NCBI GenBank assembly: GCA_020629715.1
Contig: JAHDCU010000003.1
Location: 310,879-374,878 of the forward strand
Direction of reading: 5' to 3'
DNA: 64,000 nt
Origin: Saprospiraceae bacterium
GTDB taxonomy: Bacteria; Bacteroidota; Bacteroidia; Chitinophagales; Saprospiraceae
The position numbers and the translations under genes are program-made. The notes beneath the pieces are model-generated. The model did no database searches and was not told the origin of the DNA. It saw only the letters and a program-made list of their open reading frames with translations. Below, piece after piece: positions 4,581 through 13,536 of this stretch (its first letter is position 1; every line of letters begins with the position of its first letter).

Positions 4581-4603
4581 CTGTGACCTTCGGGCTCGCC
4601 ACG

Positions 4604-5505
4604 ATGTCACACAGTCTCATGCTTACTCTTCCAATCGTCCACGAAAAGTATTGTAATTACGCCCTTGCTTTCAAGGGGCTAACACCTCGGACCATTCAGG
4701 GGTATCGAGAAGTATTTCGCTATTTTCTTCAATCAGTACCAGTGACTAAGCTTCACGAGGTCAATCAATTTATGATTGAAGATTGGCTTATGAAAGGCAA
4801 GCTAGAAAAGGATTGGAGTGCTAAGACTATCAGAAATCGATTATTGCCCTTAGAAGCTTTTTTAAGTGGTGCAGAGAACGCCAATTAATCCAGAATGATC
4901 CTACCGAATTTATTCCGAAGCCAAAGCTTCCAAAAACGCTGCCTAAATCCTTATCACTAAAAGATGCCGAAAAACTACTCGACTGGACAAAGCATTTGCG
5001 ATACTACTACAAGTTTGAGAAGAATAGAGCTGTCGCCATTATTGCGATGTTTCTCTACACGGGAATCCGCATAGGCGAATTATACAACCTCAAGATGTCG
5101 GATGTCAAATTAGAAGAAAAGGTAGTTCATATAATTTGTGGAAAGGGGCAAAAAGATCGTAAAGTGCCCATTAATCATAGTCTCTACTTTATTCTTGAAG
5201 CATATTTGAAAGACAGAACCAAAAGGAAAGTCAGCTGTCCCTACTTCTTTGTTTCTCTAAAACTGGATGAAAAGATGAGCACAAACGTTATCAAGCGATT
5301 GGTGATAAAACTTCGTAAGAAATCAGGTATTTACTTTTATCCACATATCCTTCGTCATACATTTGCTACCCTGATGCTCGAAGGCGGTTGTAATCTCTAT
5401 ACATTGAGCAAATTAATGGGACATAGTGATATTAAGACAACTACAATTTATTTGGGGACAACAACGGCTCATCTTCACGCTGAGATGTGTAAGCATCCAT
5501 TATAA
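4604..5505 (+). CDS. tyrosine recombinase, split by a -1 frameshift at a slippery heptamer
   Basis: This is a phage-integrase/XerD-like site-specific recombinase encoded in two frames. The first frame (4604-4888) holds the N-terminal SAM-like core-binding domain, ending ..LLPLEAFLSGAENAN. A -1 shift at 4858-4864 restores the expected EAFFKWCRERQLIQNDP and continues into the catalytic domain with R (GIRIGEL), K (GKGQKDRK), HILRHT, GHSD and the Tyr of TTTIYL, ending at 5505. All catalytic residues are intact. The break is either a one-base loss in a T run (pseudogene) or programmed -1 frameshifting. ATG 4604 is chosen over the upstream GTG at 4583, which lies inside an inverted copy of the att sequence. 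It is convergent with the next recombinase, overlapping by 6 bases. Confidence 0.75.
4858..4864 (+). other. slippery heptamer T TTT TTA in -1 frameshift phase
   Basis: In the zero frame the codons are GCT TTT TTA, so the heptamer is positioned exactly as in known -1 frameshift sites, and slipping back one base gives the frame that encodes the rest of the recombinase. No obvious downstream pseudoknot or upstream Shine-Dalgarno-like stimulator was seen. Confidence 0.45.
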
Positions 5506-6378
5506 GAGACGAATTTTCTGAAAGGCTTCTTTCACCTTTTGATTAGAAAGAGAAACGTATATCTGTGTTGTTGAAATATCCGCATGTCCGAGAATACTTT
5601 TGAGCATAAAGGGGTTAAGATTTGCTTCAATCGACATCTTGCCCATAGTGTGACGAAGCATATGAGGAGTCACTTTGAAATTACATTTATTCTCAAGAAT
5701 CTTAAATACCCGGTAAAGATTTTTAGCGGTAAGCTTGCTGTCTGATCTCACACTTGAGAAGAAGTATCGAGTGGGATTACTCTTAGCTTGATTATACGAT
5801 TTGAGATAAGGCATTAAATCAAAGTGTATAGGAATAATTCTGTCCTTACTCCCCTTCCCTTCTTTGACCGTAATTTGGTATTCATCAAAATTGATATAAC
5901 GAGTCTCAAGGTTCAATAATTCCGAAAGTCGCATCCCCGTAAATAGAAAAGTCCTGATTATGGCTCGATTTCTTTTCGCCTCTAGTTCATTATACCAATC
6001 ATATGTATCAACATGTAGTAGAAGAGTATCTACCTCCCTTTTACTCAAGCATCGCGGGAGGTCTTTTGGAATTTTTGGCTTTTGAATTTTATCAACTGGA
6101 TTATTTCTCAGGAATTCGTGGTTAATACAGAAATCGAAAAAGATTTTTAGGTACTGACGTTTATTTCTAAACGTTCGATTCTTCCAGTTTCTCAAAATCT
6201 TCTGATGGGAGAGAAACCCACGAATAACATTAGTCGTCATACCTGAAAGCCTTGACTTTTTCGAATACTCTGAAAGCTTTATGACCGTAGAAATGATCTC
6301 TTTAGTCGTTCCTCCTGTTATCCCCTTCTCTATGATTGCATACCTCTTAAACTGAATCAACAAATCTGAAATTCTCAT
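5500..6378 (-). CDS. tyrosine recombinase/integrase (XerC/D-like), 292 aa
   Basis: This is a complete site-specific tyrosine recombinase. Residues 1-105 form the N-terminal SAM-like DNA-binding domain. The catalytic domain carries R (TGMRLSELL), K (GKGSKDR), HxxR (HMLRHT), H (GHADIS) and the nucleophile Tyr (TTQIYVS), so it should be active. It is related to but clearly different from the convergent recombinase at 4604-5505, and the two genes overlap by 6 bases at their 3' ends. Upstream, the stop of a 51-codon ORF directly abuts the ATG, which suggests translational coupling. With the tRNA scar at 4481-4525 it most likely served integration of an element; a XerC/D-like chromosomal role is less likely. 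Confidence 0.9.
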   Translation of the reverse strand: MRISDLLIQFKRYAIIEKGITGGTTKEIISTVIKLSEYSKKSRLSGMTTNVIRGFLSHQKILRNWKNRTFRNKRQYLKIFFDFCINHEFLRNNPVDKIQKPKIPKDLPRCLSKREVDTLLLHVDTYDWYNELEAKRNRAIIRTFLFTGMRLSELLNLETRYINFDEYQITVKEGKGSKDRIIPIHFDLMPYLKSYNQAKSNPTRYFFSSVRSDSKLTAKNLYRVFKILENKCNFKVTPHMLRHTMGKMSIEANLNPFMLKSILGHADISTTQIYVSLSNQKVKEAFQKIRLL

Positions 6379-7368: not shown

Positions 7369-10362
7369 TCACGCTACCTGAGGTTTATCCACCGAAAATC
7401 GTACATCCTCCACATACGCCATACGCTCCATAGCTTCCACTTCTAATGTATAAAATCCAAACTCTTCTACTACCTTACCCTGTAACTTATAGATTCCTTT
7501 TCCTCTAAATGGATACTTTTTAGCTACAGGTGGAAAATGTACTGTATCAATCCACTCACCCTCATAGTCTAGAAATGTACCGAATTGCATGATCTTACGA
7601 TTAGTCGTTTTGGTATTCTTGACAGATATCAAGTATCCATAAACGACAACTCTTTTCCCACTGAACTTTTGAAAATCTGAAGCTATAATCTTCTCATCAG
7701 GTAATGCATCTCTCAATAACTGGAAAGGGTGTGATAGCGGAAAACCCAAAAGTTCTATTTGGTCAAATGTAGATTCCAGTGCCTCGTAATCAAACCGTGG
7801 AAGTGCAAAATCTTTTCTGGGTACTGTTTTGAAAAGTGAATTTTGCTGACTTTTTGGTACCGCAGCACCTACTGCCATATTCGCTTTCCAAAGTAATGTT
7901 TTTCTATCCAAGCCTGTAAAACGGAATGCATCAATTCGTATCAGTATACTGAGTTGCTCTATCGATATATGTACTCGATCTAGAAAATTATCTAAGGATA
8001 GGAATAGTCCATTTTGACGTCGTTCCTTTTTGATACGCAATGCTACATTCACCTCTAAGCTATGAAGTAAGTGAAACCCCAAATAGATATCATCACCATA
8101 CAACCAGGTCTCATATTGGCTCTTATTGATACAAGGGGCATGTATGCAACCACCACACTTACGTGCCTCATGCACATATAGCTCTGTACGATAAAAACCA
8201 CCGCCATTATTAATCACCGCTACCATATATTCTAGTGGATAATAGGTCTTGAGATACAGACTTTGATAACTCTCCACCGCATAAGAGGCACTATGCCCCT
8301 TAGCAAAAGCATAGCCTGCAAAGCTTTCTATTTGTCTCCAGATCTCTAAAGTAGTATCCTTTCCATATCCTTTTTCTTTACAGTTGGACATAAATTTCAT
8401 ACGTACTTTATCAAACTCCTCGCGAGATCGATATTTACCACTCATCCCACGGCGCAACACATCAGACTCCGCTAGGTCGAGTCCTGCAAAGTGATGCGCT
8501 ACTTTGATCACATCCTCCTGATACACCATGATACCGTATGTCTCGGGCATGATTTTCTCTAGGACAGGATGCGCATTTTTTCTTCGCTCTGGATTTTTAT
8601 GCCTGAGGATATACTCTCTCATCATACCACTTTGCGCCACTCCAGGTCTGATAATAGAACTAGCTGCCACTAGTCCCAGATAGCTATCTACTTCCAACTT
8701 TCGCAATAACATCCGCATCGCTGGAGACTCTACATAAAAGCAGCCAATACACTCCGCCCTACTCACCATTTTATTGATATTATCATCTTTAAAAAATGGT
8801 TTTACATCATGAATATCCACTTTCGGTGCATCAGGTCTATTGATCCTCACGAGCTGCATGGCATCTTTGATCTTACCTAAACCACGCTGACCCAAAATAT
8901 CGTATTTATACAGCCCTACATCCTCTGCAACGATCATATCAAACTGTGTCGTAGGGAAACCCTTGGGTGGTAAATCCGTAGCTGTAAAGTAATGGATCGG
9001 CTTCTCTGCGATGATAATACCTCCGGCATGGATACTCAAATAATTAGGGCGACCATCAAGCTCTTGTGCATAAATGATAACTAGCTGCGATAGCTTATCC
9101 AGTGCCCTATAGTTAAACTTACCACTACTGAGTTTATCGATTTCATGCTTGGGTAAGCCAAATACTTTCCCCAGCTCTCGGACTGCTGCGCTATGCTTAA
9201 ATGTATTATAGGTAGCAAGCAAGGCTACCTGATTTTTATCACCAAATCGCTCGAAGATATATCGTGTCACATCCTCACGATCTCGCCATGAAAAATCGAT
9301 GTCAAAGTCGGGCGGACTTGTACGATACAGATTCATAAATCGCTCAAAATACAGGTCTAACTCTATAGGATCCACATCTGTAATACCGAGTAGATAGGCG
9401 ACGATACTATTGGCACCACTCCCTCGCCCTACATGGAAGTAACCCTTACTTTTGGCATACTGGATGATATCCCAATTGACTAAAAAAAATGGAATAAAAT
9501 CCATCTGATCGATCATATCCAACTCCTTTTCCATTCGAGATAGTATCTGATCGGTCACTACTGGATAGCGATATTCTAGTCCTTGCTGGCATAATTGTTT
9601 GATCAATTTCTGATCTGATTCTTTACTGTCGGAGTAAATGATTTTATTTTGATGAGGTCTATTTTGTGAAAAATCAAAATGCACCTTACATGTAGATAGT
9701 ATCCGATCAGTATTCGCTATCAGTGTAGGAAACTCCTTAAACTTGTCTTTCAGTTCATCATAGCTGATCATCACATCTTCTATACTTGCCTGATCAGCTG
9801 GTTGTAACTTACTGAGTAGTATATTATTATCGATGGCTCTCAAGAGCCTATGCGTATTGAAGTCTCGCTTATTGCGAAAGCTTACGCTCTGTAAGATGAC
9901 GATCTTATCTTGCCGTTGAAAAAGGCTAGTAAATCTCACCTTGGGTATATCCTGCCAAGCGACACCTATATATTCATGGTCATGGTAGTCTGATTTATTG
10001 AGTTCTAAAGCTTTCTTAAAAGGGTATATAAAAATGACATCTTCCAACAAAGGTGCTTCCTCAGGAAAATTCATTTTATGATGTGAATGCTGTGATAAAA
10101 ACTGATTCAAATGTAAAAATCCAATATTACTCTTTGCAAGCCCTACGTATCGCTGGTCTACCCCATTTCTAAAATCAATACCTACCACGGGATCGACCTT
10201 ATACTTAGGTGCCAATCGCATAAAATTGAGGCAGGCCGAAGTATTATTGATATCTGTCAGTGCTATACGTGTATAACCATGACTATGCGCTTGCTGTAGC
10301 AAATCTTCTTCCGAAAATGTACCATATCGTAAAGAGTAATAACTATGGTTATTGATGAGCAT
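7369..10362 (-). CDS. dnaE: DNA polymerase III alpha-type (DnaE; probably error-prone, DnaE2/ImuC-like), 997 aa
   Basis: This is a C-family DNA polymerase. Residues 1-~70 are a PHP domain (HSYYSLRYG, ALTDIN) in which the usual TDH has become TDI, so the PHP metal site is probably degenerate. The catalytic palm motif PPDFDIDF is near residue 351. GYAFAKGHSASYAVESYQ and the helix-hairpin-helix and OB-like C-terminal parts follow. At 997 residues it is shorter than replicative DnaE (~1160) and close to error-prone DnaE2/ImuC. An internal QQNSLF (~residue 840) resembles a beta-clamp motif. The gene starts 12 bases after the SRAP gene, downstream of a Y-family polymerase and opposite a LexA-like repressor, which points to damage-induced translesion synthesis. 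Function as a second, mutagenic polymerase is inference. Confidence 0.92.
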   Translation of the reverse strand: MLINNHSYYSLRYGTFSEEDLLQQAHSHGYTRIALTDINNTSACLNFMRLAPKYKVDPVVGIDFRNGVDQRYVGLAKSNIGFLHLNQFLSQHSHHKMNFPEEAPLLEDVIFIYPFKKALELNKSDYHDHEYIGVAWQDIPKVRFTSLFQRQDKIVILQSVSFRNKRDFNTHRLLRAIDNNILLSKLQPADQASIEDVMISYDELKDKFKEFPTLIANTDRILSTCKVHFDFSQNRPHQNKIIYSDSKESDQKLIKQLCQQGLEYRYPVVTDQILSRMEKELDMIDQMDFIPFFLVNWDIIQYAKSKGYFHVGRGSGANSIVAYLLGITDVDPIELDLYFERFMNLYRTSPPDFDIDFSWRDREDVTRYIFERFGDKNQVALLATYNTFKHSAAVRELGKVFGLPKHEIDKLSSGKFNYRALDKLSQLVIIYAQELDGRPNYLSIHAGGIIIAEKPIHYFTATDLPPKGFPTTQFDMIVAEDVGLYKYDILGQRGLGKIKDAMQLVRINRPDAPKVDIHDVKPFFKDDNINKMVSRAECIGCFYVESPAMRMLLRKLEVDSYLGLVAASSIIRPGVAQSGMMREYILRHKNPERRKNAHPVLEKIMPETYGIMVYQEDVIKVAHHFAGLDLAESDVLRRGMSGKYRSREEFDKVRMKFMSNCKEKGYGKDTTLEIWRQIESFAGYAFAKGHSASYAVESYQSLYLKTYYPLEYMVAVINNGGGFYRTELYVHEARKCGGCIHAPCINKSQYETWLYGDDIYLGFHLLHSLEVNVALRIKKERRQNGLFLSLDNFLDRVHISIEQLSILIRIDAFRFTGLDRKTLLWKANMAVGAAVPKSQQNSLFKTVPRKDFALPRFDYEALESTFDQIELLGFPLSHPFQLLRDALPDEKIIASDFQKFSGKRVVVYGYLISVKNTKTTNRKIMQFGTFLDYEGEWIDTVHFPPVAKKYPFRGKGIYKLQGKVVEEFGFYTLEVEAMERMAYVEDVRFSVDKPQVA

Positions 10363-10374
10363 TCAGTCCACTTT

Positions 10375-11199
10375 TTAGAATAGTCCTAGCTGTTCGTTTT
10401 GTTTTCGTTTCCTTGCGGTGGTCTCTCCCATACCCTGCAGCTCTAAGTCTTGATAAAAGACATAATCATACTCCTTACGCAGGCGATCTCCAGTGGGCTT
10501 CAGTAGATCTATTCCTTTATCTTTTGGTGATTTGATATCTGTAGATATCGGGTACGCATTGAAGTCTGTATCATCAAATGGTTGTAATAGAGCTGTGATC
10601 TGATCTAGACTAGCATCTTGATCAATCCACTGCCTTTCTGTCTCTTCCGTAAGTACGAGTGGGCTTCTATGATGAGGTATTTTCTGCATTAGTGGCGTAG
10701 GGGCAGTTGTCAATATGGCGAAACTTCTAGTGACTTCTCCTGTAGATTTATCAATCCACTCATCCCATATCCCCGCCATTGCAAATGGTCTTTTTTTACC
10801 TCCCCGATATACTAAATATGGGTCACTGAGTCTGTGCTTCGTACTACCTTCTACAAATGCATCTGCTATGACCAAGCACCGCTGCTGACGTATCGCTTTC
10901 CTAAACATCGGTTTATTGATGATGCCCTTTGCTCCAGTGTAAGCACTTTGATTTTCCTTGTTATGATCGCCTTCACTCCGAGCATTGATGACATACATCT
11001 TCTTTTTTGCCCAGTGTGGAGTGAAGCCAAACTGGAATAACTGTACTCGGTCAGGAGCAGCATCCGTGATCACGAGCGCATCATCTCCTGGAGCAATATT
11101 GGGATTGGCAATAAAACGATCTAGTACTTCGGATACATCTACCTGAAATTCCTTTTCTATGATCTTAAGTTTACTGACTACGGTGTATCGTCCACACAT
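10375..11199 (-). CDS. SOS response-associated peptidase (SRAP; YedK/HMCES family), 274 aa
   Basis: SRAP proteins covalently trap abasic sites in single-stranded DNA through Cys2. Here MCGRYT gives the Cys2. NARSEG supplies the conserved Asn and Glu, and HHRSPLVL the conserved His, all in the usual order. Length is slightly above the ~230 of YedK because of a C-terminal tail that ends in the pentapeptide QLGLF, a textbook bacterial beta-clamp-binding motif. I know of no standard tail of this kind in the family. The gene lies between the Y-family polymerase (268 bases upstream) and DnaE (12 bases downstream). A hairpin (11251-11275) sits in its leader. The product probably protects abasic sites at stalled forks while the cassette's polymerases act. 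Confidence 0.93.
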   Translation of the reverse strand: MCGRYTVVSKLKIIEKEFQVDVSEVLDRFIANPNIAPGDDALVITDAAPDRVQLFQFGFTPHWAKKKMYVINARSEGDHNKENQSAYTGAKGIINKPMFRKAIRQQRCLVIADAFVEGSTKHRLSDPYLVYRGGKKRPFAMAGIWDEWIDKSTGEVTRSFAILTTAPTPLMQKIPHHRSPLVLTEETERQWIDQDASLDQITALLQPFDDTDFNAYPISTDIKSPKDKGIDLLKPTGDRLRKEYDYVFYQDLELQGMGETTARKRKQNEQLGLF

Positions 11200-11250
11200 A
11201 TTTGTGTTTTTTGTTTTTTATAAAAAGGATCTTTTCATACTGACCCTGCT

Positions 11251-11275
11251 TGCCTCGACTTGGCAAGTAGAGGCA
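11251..11275. repeat. hairpin in the dinB-SRAP gap
   Basis: TGCCTC (11251-11256) pairs with GAGGCA (11270-11275), and after a mismatch ACTT pairs with AAGT around a GGC loop. It lies in the 268-base gap between the two minus-strand genes. A T-rich tail exists only on the plus strand, so it is more likely a leader structure or processing site than a dinB terminator. Confidence 0.45.
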
Positions 11276-11467
11276 TCTTTTAAATTCGAACTACCTATTC
11301 ATATTATAACTCTTGTCATTTAACACAAATTCTTGATAGACATTTTACAATACTTTTTATGTTCTCTTTATTTCAAAATCATCCTTTCTTCGATTTAAAA
11401 GATCTCTCAATCCACTTTTGGCGAGACAGGCTCTATTGGAGATGAAAAGCATTCGTAGTAAAAAACA

Positions 11468-12679
11468 CTACGCTGTCCGATGTGCCAATACAATTGGAGG
11501 TTCACCATTGAAAGGGTTTGTCATATTTCCTATGGTTTTTGCTCCGAAAGTGGATGCTCTATATACACTGCGCTCACCATACTTATTACGAATACCATCC
11601 ATTGCTTGATATAGTTGAGCCGTTTTTGCGGTATTCTCAAAGAGATTCATCTGGTGATTTCCTGATACGATACTACTAAATCGTACCCCTACCAGTCTGA
11701 TCAATAAGCGTTTAGCATATAATTGCTCAAATAACTCTAATACTTTAGGAATCAAGTTATGATCCGCAGCAGTATAGGGTACATGAGCCTGTTTGGTATG
11801 TGTATTAAAATCCGAATATCGTATTTTGACCGTAATGCATGATGTGAGTTTTTGCCCCTTCCTTAGCTGGTATCCAAGGTTCTCCGCCATAGCTCTGATG
11901 ATGGTTTTCAACTTATATACATCAATCGTATCCTTTCCTAAGGTCCGTTCGCTAGATATTGATTTTCTCTCATGATATTGTACTAATTGACTATTGTCGA
12001 TACCGTTAGATTTGAGCCAAATGGCTTTCCCGTGCTTCCCGAATACAGACTCCATCATCTCCATGGGCATCTGCTGCACAGTAGCTACTTTTTTGATACC
12101 TAAATGGCATAACGACTGAAAGGTCTTGTCACCTACAGAGGGTATTTTTTTAATAGACAGTGGTGCTAAAAATGGCTTTTCAAAACCCTCATCAATCTTG
12201 ATCTGATTGCTTGGCTTTGCCTCTCCTGTCGCTACTTTTGAGACGGTTTTGCTTGTAGATAAACCAAAGGAAATCGGCAATCCCGTCTCTTTAGTGATAC
12301 GGGTACGTAGCTCTGAGGCAAACTTGTAGCAACCAAAATATTTGTCCATTCCCGTGAGATCTGCATAGAATTCATCGATACTGGCTTTCTCTAAAATGGG
12401 TACATCTTCTTTTAGGATATCTGTCACCGCTTTTGAGTATTTGGTATACGTACCTGCATTCCCTTTGATCACGATGGCCTCAGGGCACAGCTGTCTTGCC
12501 ATTTTCATAGACATACCTGAGTGAACACCGAATACTCGTGACTCGTAGCTAGCTGCTGATACTACCCCACGATTCCCAGTACCACCTACCAATATGGGAA
12601 GTCCATTTAAGCGACTATCAAGCAAACGCTCCACGGATACAAAAAAGGTATCTAAATCGAGATGTAGAATGGCTCTCAT
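11468..12679 (-). CDS. dinB: Y-family DNA polymerase (DinB / Pol IV), 403 aa
   Basis: This is a translesion polymerase. The catalytic carboxylates are in LDLDTFFVSVE (N-terminus) and SIDEFYADL (~residue 100), and PILVGGTGNRGVVSAASYESR with VHSGMSM form the finger region. The HhH thumb (IPSVGDKTFQSLCHLGI) and little-finger domain follow. All catalytic residues are kept, unlike ImuB. A motif NHQMNLFENT around residue 350 fits a beta-clamp-binding QxxLF. The ATG at 12679 faces the repressor gene across a 104-base divergent region full of operator-like repeats, so it is probably the first gene of the damage cassette. It could equally be called UmuC-like, but length and finger motifs fit DinB better. 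Confidence 0.93.
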   Translation of the reverse strand: MRAILHLDLDTFFVSVERLLDSRLNGLPILVGGTGNRGVVSAASYESRVFGVHSGMSMKMARQLCPEAIVIKGNAGTYTKYSKAVTDILKEDVPILEKASIDEFYADLTGMDKYFGCYKFASELRTRITKETGLPISFGLSTSKTVSKVATGEAKPSNQIKIDEGFEKPFLAPLSIKKIPSVGDKTFQSLCHLGIKKVATVQQMPMEMMESVFGKHGKAIWLKSNGIDNSQLVQYHERKSISSERTLGKDTIDVYKLKTIIRAMAENLGYQLRKGQKLTSCITVKIRYSDFNTHTKQAHVPYTAADHNLIPKVLELFEQLYAKRLLIRLVGVRFSSIVSGNHQMNLFENTAKTAQLYQAMDGIRNKYGERSVYRASTFGAKTIGNMTNPFNGEPPIVLAHRTA

Positions 12680-12700
12680 CTAGTTAATTTTCATCAATTT

Positions 12701-12774
12701 GGTTATTTTTACAAATAAATAGAATATTTACGAATAATTGGTGATTTTTACCAATTTATGTAATATTTATAAAT
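12701..12774. promoter_or_regulatory. operator array between dinB and the LexA-like repressor
   Basis: Four direct repeats of TTTA(C/T)NAAT occur at 12708, 12727, 12747 and 12766. Their start-to-start spacing is 19, 20 and 19 bases, about two helical turns. The third lies in a perfect dyad, AATTGGT (12736-12742) and ACCAATT (12750-12756). A larger 20-base near-repeat links 12701-12720 with 12740-12759 (16 of 20 identical). This is the expected binding region for the adjacent XRE-S24 repressor. Confidence 0.7.
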
Positions 12775-12777
12775 TTG
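12770..12777 (+). promoter_or_regulatory. -7 promoter element of the repressor gene
   Basis: TAAATTTG matches the Bacteroidota -7 consensus TAnnTTTG and ends 6 bases before the ATG at 12784, implying a leaderless or near-leaderless mRNA. It overlaps the last operator repeat. No clear -33 TTTG is seen. Confidence 0.4.
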
Positions 12778-12783
12778 TAATAT

Positions 12784-13536
12784 ATGAGCCTTGAGATACA
12801 ATGCCAGCGACTACGGCAAATCCGTGAAGAATTGGGATATACACAATCCAGCTTTGCACAGAAACTTGGAGTAGGAAATACTACCACTGAATATGAACGA
12901 GGACGTACCAAATTGACTGGAGAGCTTGTGCTCAGGCTATTGAGTGATTATAATGTAAATCCACTTTGGCTCTATGGGGAAAGTGATCGTAAATACCTTG
13001 ATCCTCGTGCTAAGGAGGTAAGTCCTAGTGTGGTAAGTGTAGATAATTCGGGCTTTGAAAACATACTGATGGTCAATCAAAAGGCTGCCGCAGGTTATGC
13101 TGGCAACCTCAATAATGAGGAGTTCCATGAGCAATTACCTGCATTTTCCTTTCCTATACCTGAGTATCGCAATGCGACTTTTCGGTGTTTTCAAGTGGAA
13201 GGTTTTAGTATGTCGCCATCTATTCTTCCTGAAGAGTGGGTCATCACCGAAGCATTAGAAAATATCAATCAGATCAAAGATGGGATGATCTACGTGATCG
13301 TAGATCCTGAAAGTATCAGAATCAAACAAGTACATAACAATCCTGATATGCGATGTTTGACACTAGTATCTCTAAATCCAGAATATCCTCAAGAGCTCGT
13401 AGGCTACGATCAGGTGATGGAGATCTGGAAGTTTCATAGCAGGATATCAAAAGAACTCATCGTAGATGTTACACAGCATAAGTTGGATAGCATCTATCAT
13501 GATGTCAAGGCTATGAAGGAAAAGATACTCGGATGA
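12784..13536 (+). CDS. XRE-family HTH plus S24 peptidase repressor (LexA/CI-like), 250 aa
   Basis: Residues ~8-62 form a phage-type helix-turn-helix (RQIREELGYTQSSFAQKLGVGNTTTEYERGRTK). Residues ~130-235 are an S24 peptidase domain with the nucleophile Ser142 in EGFSMSPS and general base Lys181 in SIRIKQV, 39 residues apart as in LexA/UmuD. A candidate self-cleavage Ala-Gly lies at 103-104 (AAAGY). It is therefore expected to bind DNA, respond to RecA filaments by self-cleavage and derepress its targets. It is divergent from dinB across the operator array, which indicates control of the dinB-SRAP-dnaE genes and of itself. It has no winged LexA-type DNA-binding domain, so it is a CI-like functional analogue of LexA. 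It is followed by a terminator at 13692-13731. Confidence 0.9.
   Translation: MSLEIQCQRLRQIREELGYTQSSFAQKLGVGNTTTEYERGRTKLTGELVLRLLSDYNVNPLWLYGESDRKYLDPRAKEVSPSVVSVDNSGFENILMVNQKAAAGYAGNLNNEEFHEQLPAFSFPIPEYRNATFRCFQVEGFSMSPSILPEEWVITEALENINQIKDGMIYVIVDPESIRIKQVHNNPDMRCLTLVSLNPEYPQELVGYDQVMEIWKFHSRISKELIVDVTQHKLDSIYHDVKAMKEKILG

Follow-up and report, generated by a model that had tools for sequence, protein, structure and literature searches.

We describe an SRAP protein encoded in a 64,000-nucleotide stretch of a Saprospiraceae bacterium (GCA_020629715.1, contig JAHDCU010000003.1, positions 310,879 to 374,878; here called the window, whose numbering is used throughout). The protein ends in QLGLF, a candidate peptide for binding the beta sliding clamp DnaN. 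We consider it probable (about 0.72) that this is an SRAP domain with an added leash whose end peptide docks in the hydrophobic cleft of DnaN. The best reading of the sequences that we compared is that many Bacteroidota SRAP proteins use a C-terminal peptide of this kind as their tether to DnaN, in parallel to the PCNA motif that has been proposed for human HMCES, which suggests that bacteria reached the same trick as proposed for the human protein. We directly observed the domains, the motifs, the recurrence of the tail, its excess over chance and its match to the replicase motif of the family.

A recurrent C-terminal pentamer on SRAP proteins

The SRAP gene (10375..11199, reverse strand) encodes 274 amino acids and matches the Pfam family SRAP (PF02586) with an E-value of 3.2e-46 and 158 bits, against a cut-off of 27.1. 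Residues C2, N72, E117 and H176 are invariant across the 24 homologues of our alignment, and the letters were verified in the protein's own sequence; the chemistry of the Cys2/Asn/Glu/His cross-linking site of SRAP has been described (PMC9436759; articles given by PMC number are cited here from excerpts of their text). The protein is of the abasic-site cross-linking kind represented by HMCES and YedK, with a putative activity by homology. A structure model based on 24 sequences had a mean per-residue confidence (pLDDT) of 82.5 and a predicted template modelling score (pTM) of 0.83, and its best Foldseek matches were BT_1218, human HMCES and E. coli YedK (best E-value 2.3e-19). From residue 241 onwards the pLDDT by block ranges from 62 to 39, with residues 257-274 below 50. 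We therefore delimit a predicted leash after the SRAP domain at approximately residues 250-274 (10378..10452, reverse strand), based on this low pLDDT and on a length that varies among relatives. The last five residues of the leash, 270-274 (10378..10392, reverse strand), are the QLGLF that the initial annotation had named and that can be read directly from the sequence. This pentamer fits the clamp consensus QL[S/D]LF, with a deviating G at position 3 that equals the one in E. coli Pol II. Family searches of the host genome found one SRAP protein, two Y-family polymerases, two DnaE proteins and one DnaN, which ends in MPVM and is related to solved clamps.

To survey the tail, we used one genome per species. 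By Pfam, SRAP was present in 111 of 120 genomes of the Saprospiraceae, to which the nearest named relatives belong, in 46 of 90 genomes of the class and in 40 of 70 genomes of the phylum. With the window SRAP as query, matches were found in 28 of 398 Saprospiraceae genomes (E 1e-55), 30 of 395 genomes of the class and 5 of 296 genomes of the phylum (E 1e-35), own genome included in each case. We call an SRAP cassette-type if its match to the window SRAP reaches 190 bits, which does not imply adjoining dinB or dnaE genes. Before counting, we removed open or partial SRAP frames, proteins with no MC start or shorter than 190 amino acids, and duplicates; second SRAP places within a Saprospiraceae genome were mostly left out. 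As the filters differ, there are 56 cassette-type rows in the motif and linkage counts and 54 in the larger survey and the tree.

The strict motif (Qxx[LMI]F within the last 14 residues) is present in 27/56 cassette-type SRAP proteins compared to 9/519 non-SRAP open reading frames (ORFs) of at least 250 amino acids from the same loci. It also occurred in 31/101 other Saprospiraceae SRAP proteins and in 0/24 SRAP proteins of other Bacteroidota. The relaxed core ([LMI]F in the last eight residues) was present in 29/56, 78/101 and 7/24 proteins of these three sets and in 37/519 of the non-SRAP ORFs. When the last 25 residues of the cassette-type proteins were shuffled 1000 times, the mean was 0.23 motif carriers and the maximum three, and 1000 shuffles each of the cassette-type and the other Saprospiraceae sets never gave more than three. 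The tail is thus not due to chance, being in excess over both null ORFs and shuffles. In the larger set, the core or full motif was found in 126 of 214 Bacteroidota SRAP proteins compared to 2 of 74 from an outside group (69 records of viral contigs without an assigned host phylum and five of plasmids, no chromosomes, 49 distinct in their last 25 residues). Tails also occur in other SRAP subfamilies, for instance KQLGLF at the end of L359 and QGSLF at the end of L343. Endings of the LF type were seen in MCY/MCF-type SRAP proteins of other Bacteroidia families (L359, L343, L356, L363, L369, L370 and L377).

Of the 29 cassette-type tails with the core, 27 begin the pentamer with Q and 22 have D, S or T at its third position; 13 stop at the phenylalanine, and in nine an aspartate follows it directly. 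This bears on the possibility that the hydrophobic C-terminus is a degron: a protease such as ClpXP, Lon or Tsp would recognise the exposed LF end and degrade SRAP once the SOS response is over, or clear it from cross-links. Turnover by proteolysis is common among SOS proteins, and a tail that stops exactly at F, as it does in 13/29 cassette-type and 37/78 other Saprospiraceae proteins, would suit such a signal. However, further residues follow F in 16/29 and 41/78 (e.g. LFD, LFGS and LFDNEVI), which a degron with a free carboxylate should forbid, and the Q at position 1 in 27/29 tails as well as the likeness to DnaE motifs would be left unexplained. We thus regard a degron as unlikely.

To put the pentamer into the context of the lineage, we compared it to clamp motifs of Saprospiraceae polymerases. 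In the replicative DnaE1, for which 40 genomes gave a DnaE match and 30 of these a locus (L388-L417), xx[ST]LF is present in 30/30 and position 1 is Q in just eight. This suggests that the clamp consensus of Saprospiraceae has a relaxed first position, and SRAP tails such as PPTLF and QGTLF accordingly resemble the motif of the lineage's replicase. For the same reason, we did not keep a Q in first place as our sole criterion and report strict and relaxed counts side by side. The accessory DnaE has xLF in all 25 aligned rows (24 distinct), often with loss of the Q; three further rows were aligned with them, of which two are the own DnaE1 (QNSLF) and one is a DnaE1-like protein, L233 (APTLF). 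The own DnaE1 motif, QNSLF, is identical to that of the accessory DnaE. We take the aligned DnaE site to be the clamp motif from its place in E. coli DnaE. Among the DinB proteins, Q[MI]x[LM]F is found in every one whose motif region was displayed, with three long DinB frames excluded.

Constraint, gain and loss of the tail

Among 28 cassette-type tails, the codon of the leucine at position 4 differs in 298 of 378 pairs and the residue never does, though M and I were permitted; F at position 5 and the presence of the motif were set by the selection of rows and are uninformative for this comparison. The spacing from the conserved GMG to the pentamer is 5-23 residues in 25 of the 28 tails, the remaining three not being properly measured. 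Among cassette-type tails, the length of the leash thus varies while the pentamer stays constant.

Several observations weigh against a clamp tail. The structure model draws a weak, low-confidence helix across residues 247-270, so the flexibility of the leash is presumed only. A tail is missing from 26 of 54 cassette-type SRAP proteins, and its presence requires at least seven state changes on a quick tree of 57 rows, in which 15 of 54 inner branches are weak and several branches are long; the tail is thus dispensable or often lost. Close homologues, which the initial annotation had proposed to inspect, carry it in many cases, not in all: the nearest relative, L002 (= L040, ~85% identity), lost it through a frame change. 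In this locus (L002, 6001-6843), QLDLF and a stop can be read in another frame after a small length change, and we counted it as tail-less. Furthermore, the tail is present in only 20 of 59 Bacteroidota SRAP proteins that are neither cassette-type nor from Saprospiraceae. Lastly, position 1 is not Q in 47 of the 78 non-cassette-type Saprospiraceae tails, where it is often P (PPTLF), and such tails depart from the E. coli consensus.

The frequent changes (at least seven gains or losses on 57 rows) and the absence from about half of the cassette-type proteins would also fit a neutral tail, which reflects lineage-specific composition or was inherited without function. A neutral tail would, however, not account for the null-ORF and shuffle tests, the synonymous codon turnover at fixed residues, the fixed motif at the end of a variable leash, or the 78 tails among 101 non-cassette-type SRAP proteins of one family. 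We consider neutrality very improbable.

The SOS-type cassette and tails outside it

The SRAP gene lies between two polymerase genes on the same strand, and a regulator gene diverges from this operon. All four genes and their domains (DnaE, SRAP, Y-family polymerase, HTH-S24) were recovered as initially annotated. The accessory DnaE (7369..10362, reverse strand, 997 amino acids), identified as an ORF and by domain search, has a degenerate PHP motif, TDINN, compared to TDHGN in the DnaE1 of the genome, and it retains PDFDID. We call it DnaE2B-like from these motifs. Its clamp motif, annotated before as QQNSLF near residue 840, is located there and better taken as the pentamer QNSLF at residues 840-844 (7831..7845, reverse strand; from sequence and alignment). 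The Y-family polymerase of the DinB type (11468..12679, reverse strand, 403 amino acids) has the catalytic motifs DLD at 8 and SIDE at 100. Its clamp motif QMNLF, annotated before near residue 350, is at residues 343-347 (11639..11653, reverse strand). Behind it, residues 356-376 (11552..11614, reverse strand; position computed) form a RecA-NT-like segment, which by eye resembles the N-terminal helix of RecA. In three loci (L153, L154 and L055) we observed open frames of 502-577 amino acids with DinB homology, which in L153 and L055 overlap the SRAP start by ~10 bases.

The divergent regulator (12784..13536, forward strand, 250 amino acids) combines a helix-turn-helix (HTH) and an S24 domain. 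With AAAG at 101, GFSMSP at 140 and SIRIKQV at 177, it has the A-G site and the Ser-Lys dyad seen in LexA. It fits the non-canonical LexA of Bacteroidetes, whose network has been described to include DinB-DnaE operons and an SOS-response associated peptidase (excerpts of PMC8565304). Neither GGA-N5-TCC nor CTAA-N5-TTAG operators were found in the gap between the polymerase and the regulator (12680-12783); GGA-N5-TCC is present in the equivalent gap of three of the seven relatives examined (L046, L218 and L219). The gap carries inverted repeats, e.g. AATTGGT-N7-ACCAATT. Over the window, GGA-N5-TCC occurs 21 times with 10 expected, a count that we did not use; 12 of the 21 lie inside a giant ORF (13811-38092). 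This single ORF of 8093 amino acids has many near-identical repeats and by its look encodes a giant surface protein. On the other side of the cassette, at 4583-6378, there are ORFs on both strands that we judged by eye to be tyrosine-recombinase-like.

The cassette fits the DnaE2B-PolY-RecA module of Bacteroidetes in the parts of PMC12926913 that we draw on. An ImuA-ImuB-DnaE2 system was considered and rejected: both Y-family proteins found in the genome show the acidic catalytic residues in sequence, and no dead ImuB was found; ImuA was not searched for. The initial annotation had inferred an imu-like mutasome in which an intact DinB replaces ImuB; this is not new, as the parts of the cassette are already described (PMC3765255, PMC12926913; both from excerpts).

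The gene set is not unique to the host genome. In 21 of the 56 cassette-type rows, DinB and DnaE are both found on the SRAP strand within 6 kb, and in 18 of these 21 loci there is also a match to the S24 regulator, in some cases a weak one. It had been proposed that the tail belongs specifically to this SOS cassette, where it would couple abasic-site protection to translesion synthesis. This is suggested by the 15 of 21 SRAP proteins with both genes on the same strand that are tailed, and by the clamp motifs on both polymerases. Yet a tail is present in 17/29 cassette-type SRAP proteins with a DinB or DnaE gene nearby on their own strand and in 6/16 unlinked ones (p = 0.22), with linkage unjudgeable for 11 of the 56 due to short flanks, and the tail is most frequent outside the cassette-type group, in 78/101 Saprospiraceae SRAP proteins. 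Among the latter 101, 59 are flanked by 2.5 kb or more on either side; 43 of these 59 are tailed, and a DinB or DnaE match lies beside only one, which is tail-less. As these flanks are short, they miss two accessory-length DnaE genes that lie beyond them: in G034, where SRAP has no tail, the distance is ~2 kb, and in G019, where it has one, ~7 kb. We conclude that the tail is not a cassette trait; a looser linkage, as in G034 and G019, is conceivable. The cassette-specific version is thus unlikely, and of the clamp-tail proposal there remains a candidate tail that is kept in many relatives; in the window, the two neighbouring polymerases also bear clamp motifs.

The same counts bear on a further reading, in which the tail only looks like a clamp peptide and serves as a short linear motif that binds something else, for instance RecA, SSB or the polymerases encoded next to it. 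The tie to the clamp is one of sequence likeness, and the cassette-type gene often neighbours DinB and DnaE, which would be in line with such a partner. Nevertheless, 43 of the 59 well-flanked non-cassette-type SRAP proteins are tailed with one DinB/DnaE match in all, which makes a partner from the cassette unlikely, and the pattern equals the internal motif of DnaE1. We judge another partner improbable.

A tail that binds DnaN could act as follows. It would dock in the cleft of the sliding clamp and thereby keep the SRAP domain close to the single-stranded DNA of a stalled fork or gap. There, Cys2 could cap an abasic site in time to prevent strand breakage. We infer the binding of DnaN from sequence and the capping from homology. 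In the SOS-type operon, SRAP, the DnaE2B-like protein and the Y-family polymerase may use the clefts of the clamp jointly or in competition; as both polymerases would use the same cleft, the order of access could decide between capping and bypass. Such competition with, or hand-over to, the polymerases is speculation. A wider proposal, which we hold at somewhat less than even odds, is that delivery of SRAP to forks by the clamp is general in Bacteroidota: several subfamilies (MCGR and MCY types) would have gained xxLF tails independently of each other and of the HMCES-PCNA motif, and the SOS version would share one DnaN ring with DnaE2B and PolY, with competition for the clamp deciding whether a given abasic site is capped or bypassed. 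This raises the question of how an abasic-site cap and translesion polymerases share one clamp.

Comparison with known systems

The DnaE2B-PolY-RecA module includes, in Bacteroidetes, a DnaE2B with an active PolY and RecA (PMC12926913); it shares with the locus the DnaE with a degenerate PHP motif and the Bacteroidota host, and probably also the active Y-family polymerase, whose RecA-NT-like segment was here judged by eye. In the excerpts of that article, SRAP is not placed in the module and is instead linked to UmuC-like polymerases. Operons of SRAP (DUF159) with DinB, in some cases with LexA or a DnaE paralog, have also been described (PMC3765255); the word clamp is absent from the main text of that article. 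Among the matches listed from the open-licence literature on SRAP or YedK and the clamp, we recognised none that describes a clamp motif on a bacterial SRAP.

The peptide itself is known from a polymerase. E. coli Pol II ends in QLGLF, its clamp peptide, which has been crystallised with the clamp (PDB 3D1E; PMC3716654), and changing it to QLGAA shortens the lifetime of Pol II on the clamp (PMC5731819). The same five letters are thus found at the extreme C-terminus in both cases, whereas the carrier in Pol II is a polymerase and not an abasic-site protein. In the clamp motifs of Pol III and UmuC an aspartate follows the phenylalanine (PMC3716654), a feature that 9/29 cassette-type SRAP tails share.

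Among SRAP proteins, E. coli YedK and YoqW of phage SPbeta have the same domain with the active-site Cys2, Glu and His. Both are without such a tail: the aligned part of YedK stops at 221-222 of chains of 226-229 residues, and YoqW ends in ELIESH. Human HMCES shares the SRAP fold (5ko9, Foldseek E-value 3.2e-16, TMq 0.70) and is an abasic-site cross-linker. It has been suggested to ride on PCNA via a C-terminal PIP box, or alternatively an APIM (PMC8053108). The clamp is PCNA in HMCES whereas it would be DnaN here, and according to the excerpts the type of the HMCES motif (PIP or APIM) is debated. The bacterial tail looks to have been gained independently of the HMCES motif, since 72 of the 74 sampled viral and plasmid SRAP proteins are without it. 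The recurrent tail would offer a directly testable route by which bacterial SRAP is recruited to abasic sites at forks, and, if true, HMCES with PCNA and SRAP with DnaN would form a parallel across two domains of life.

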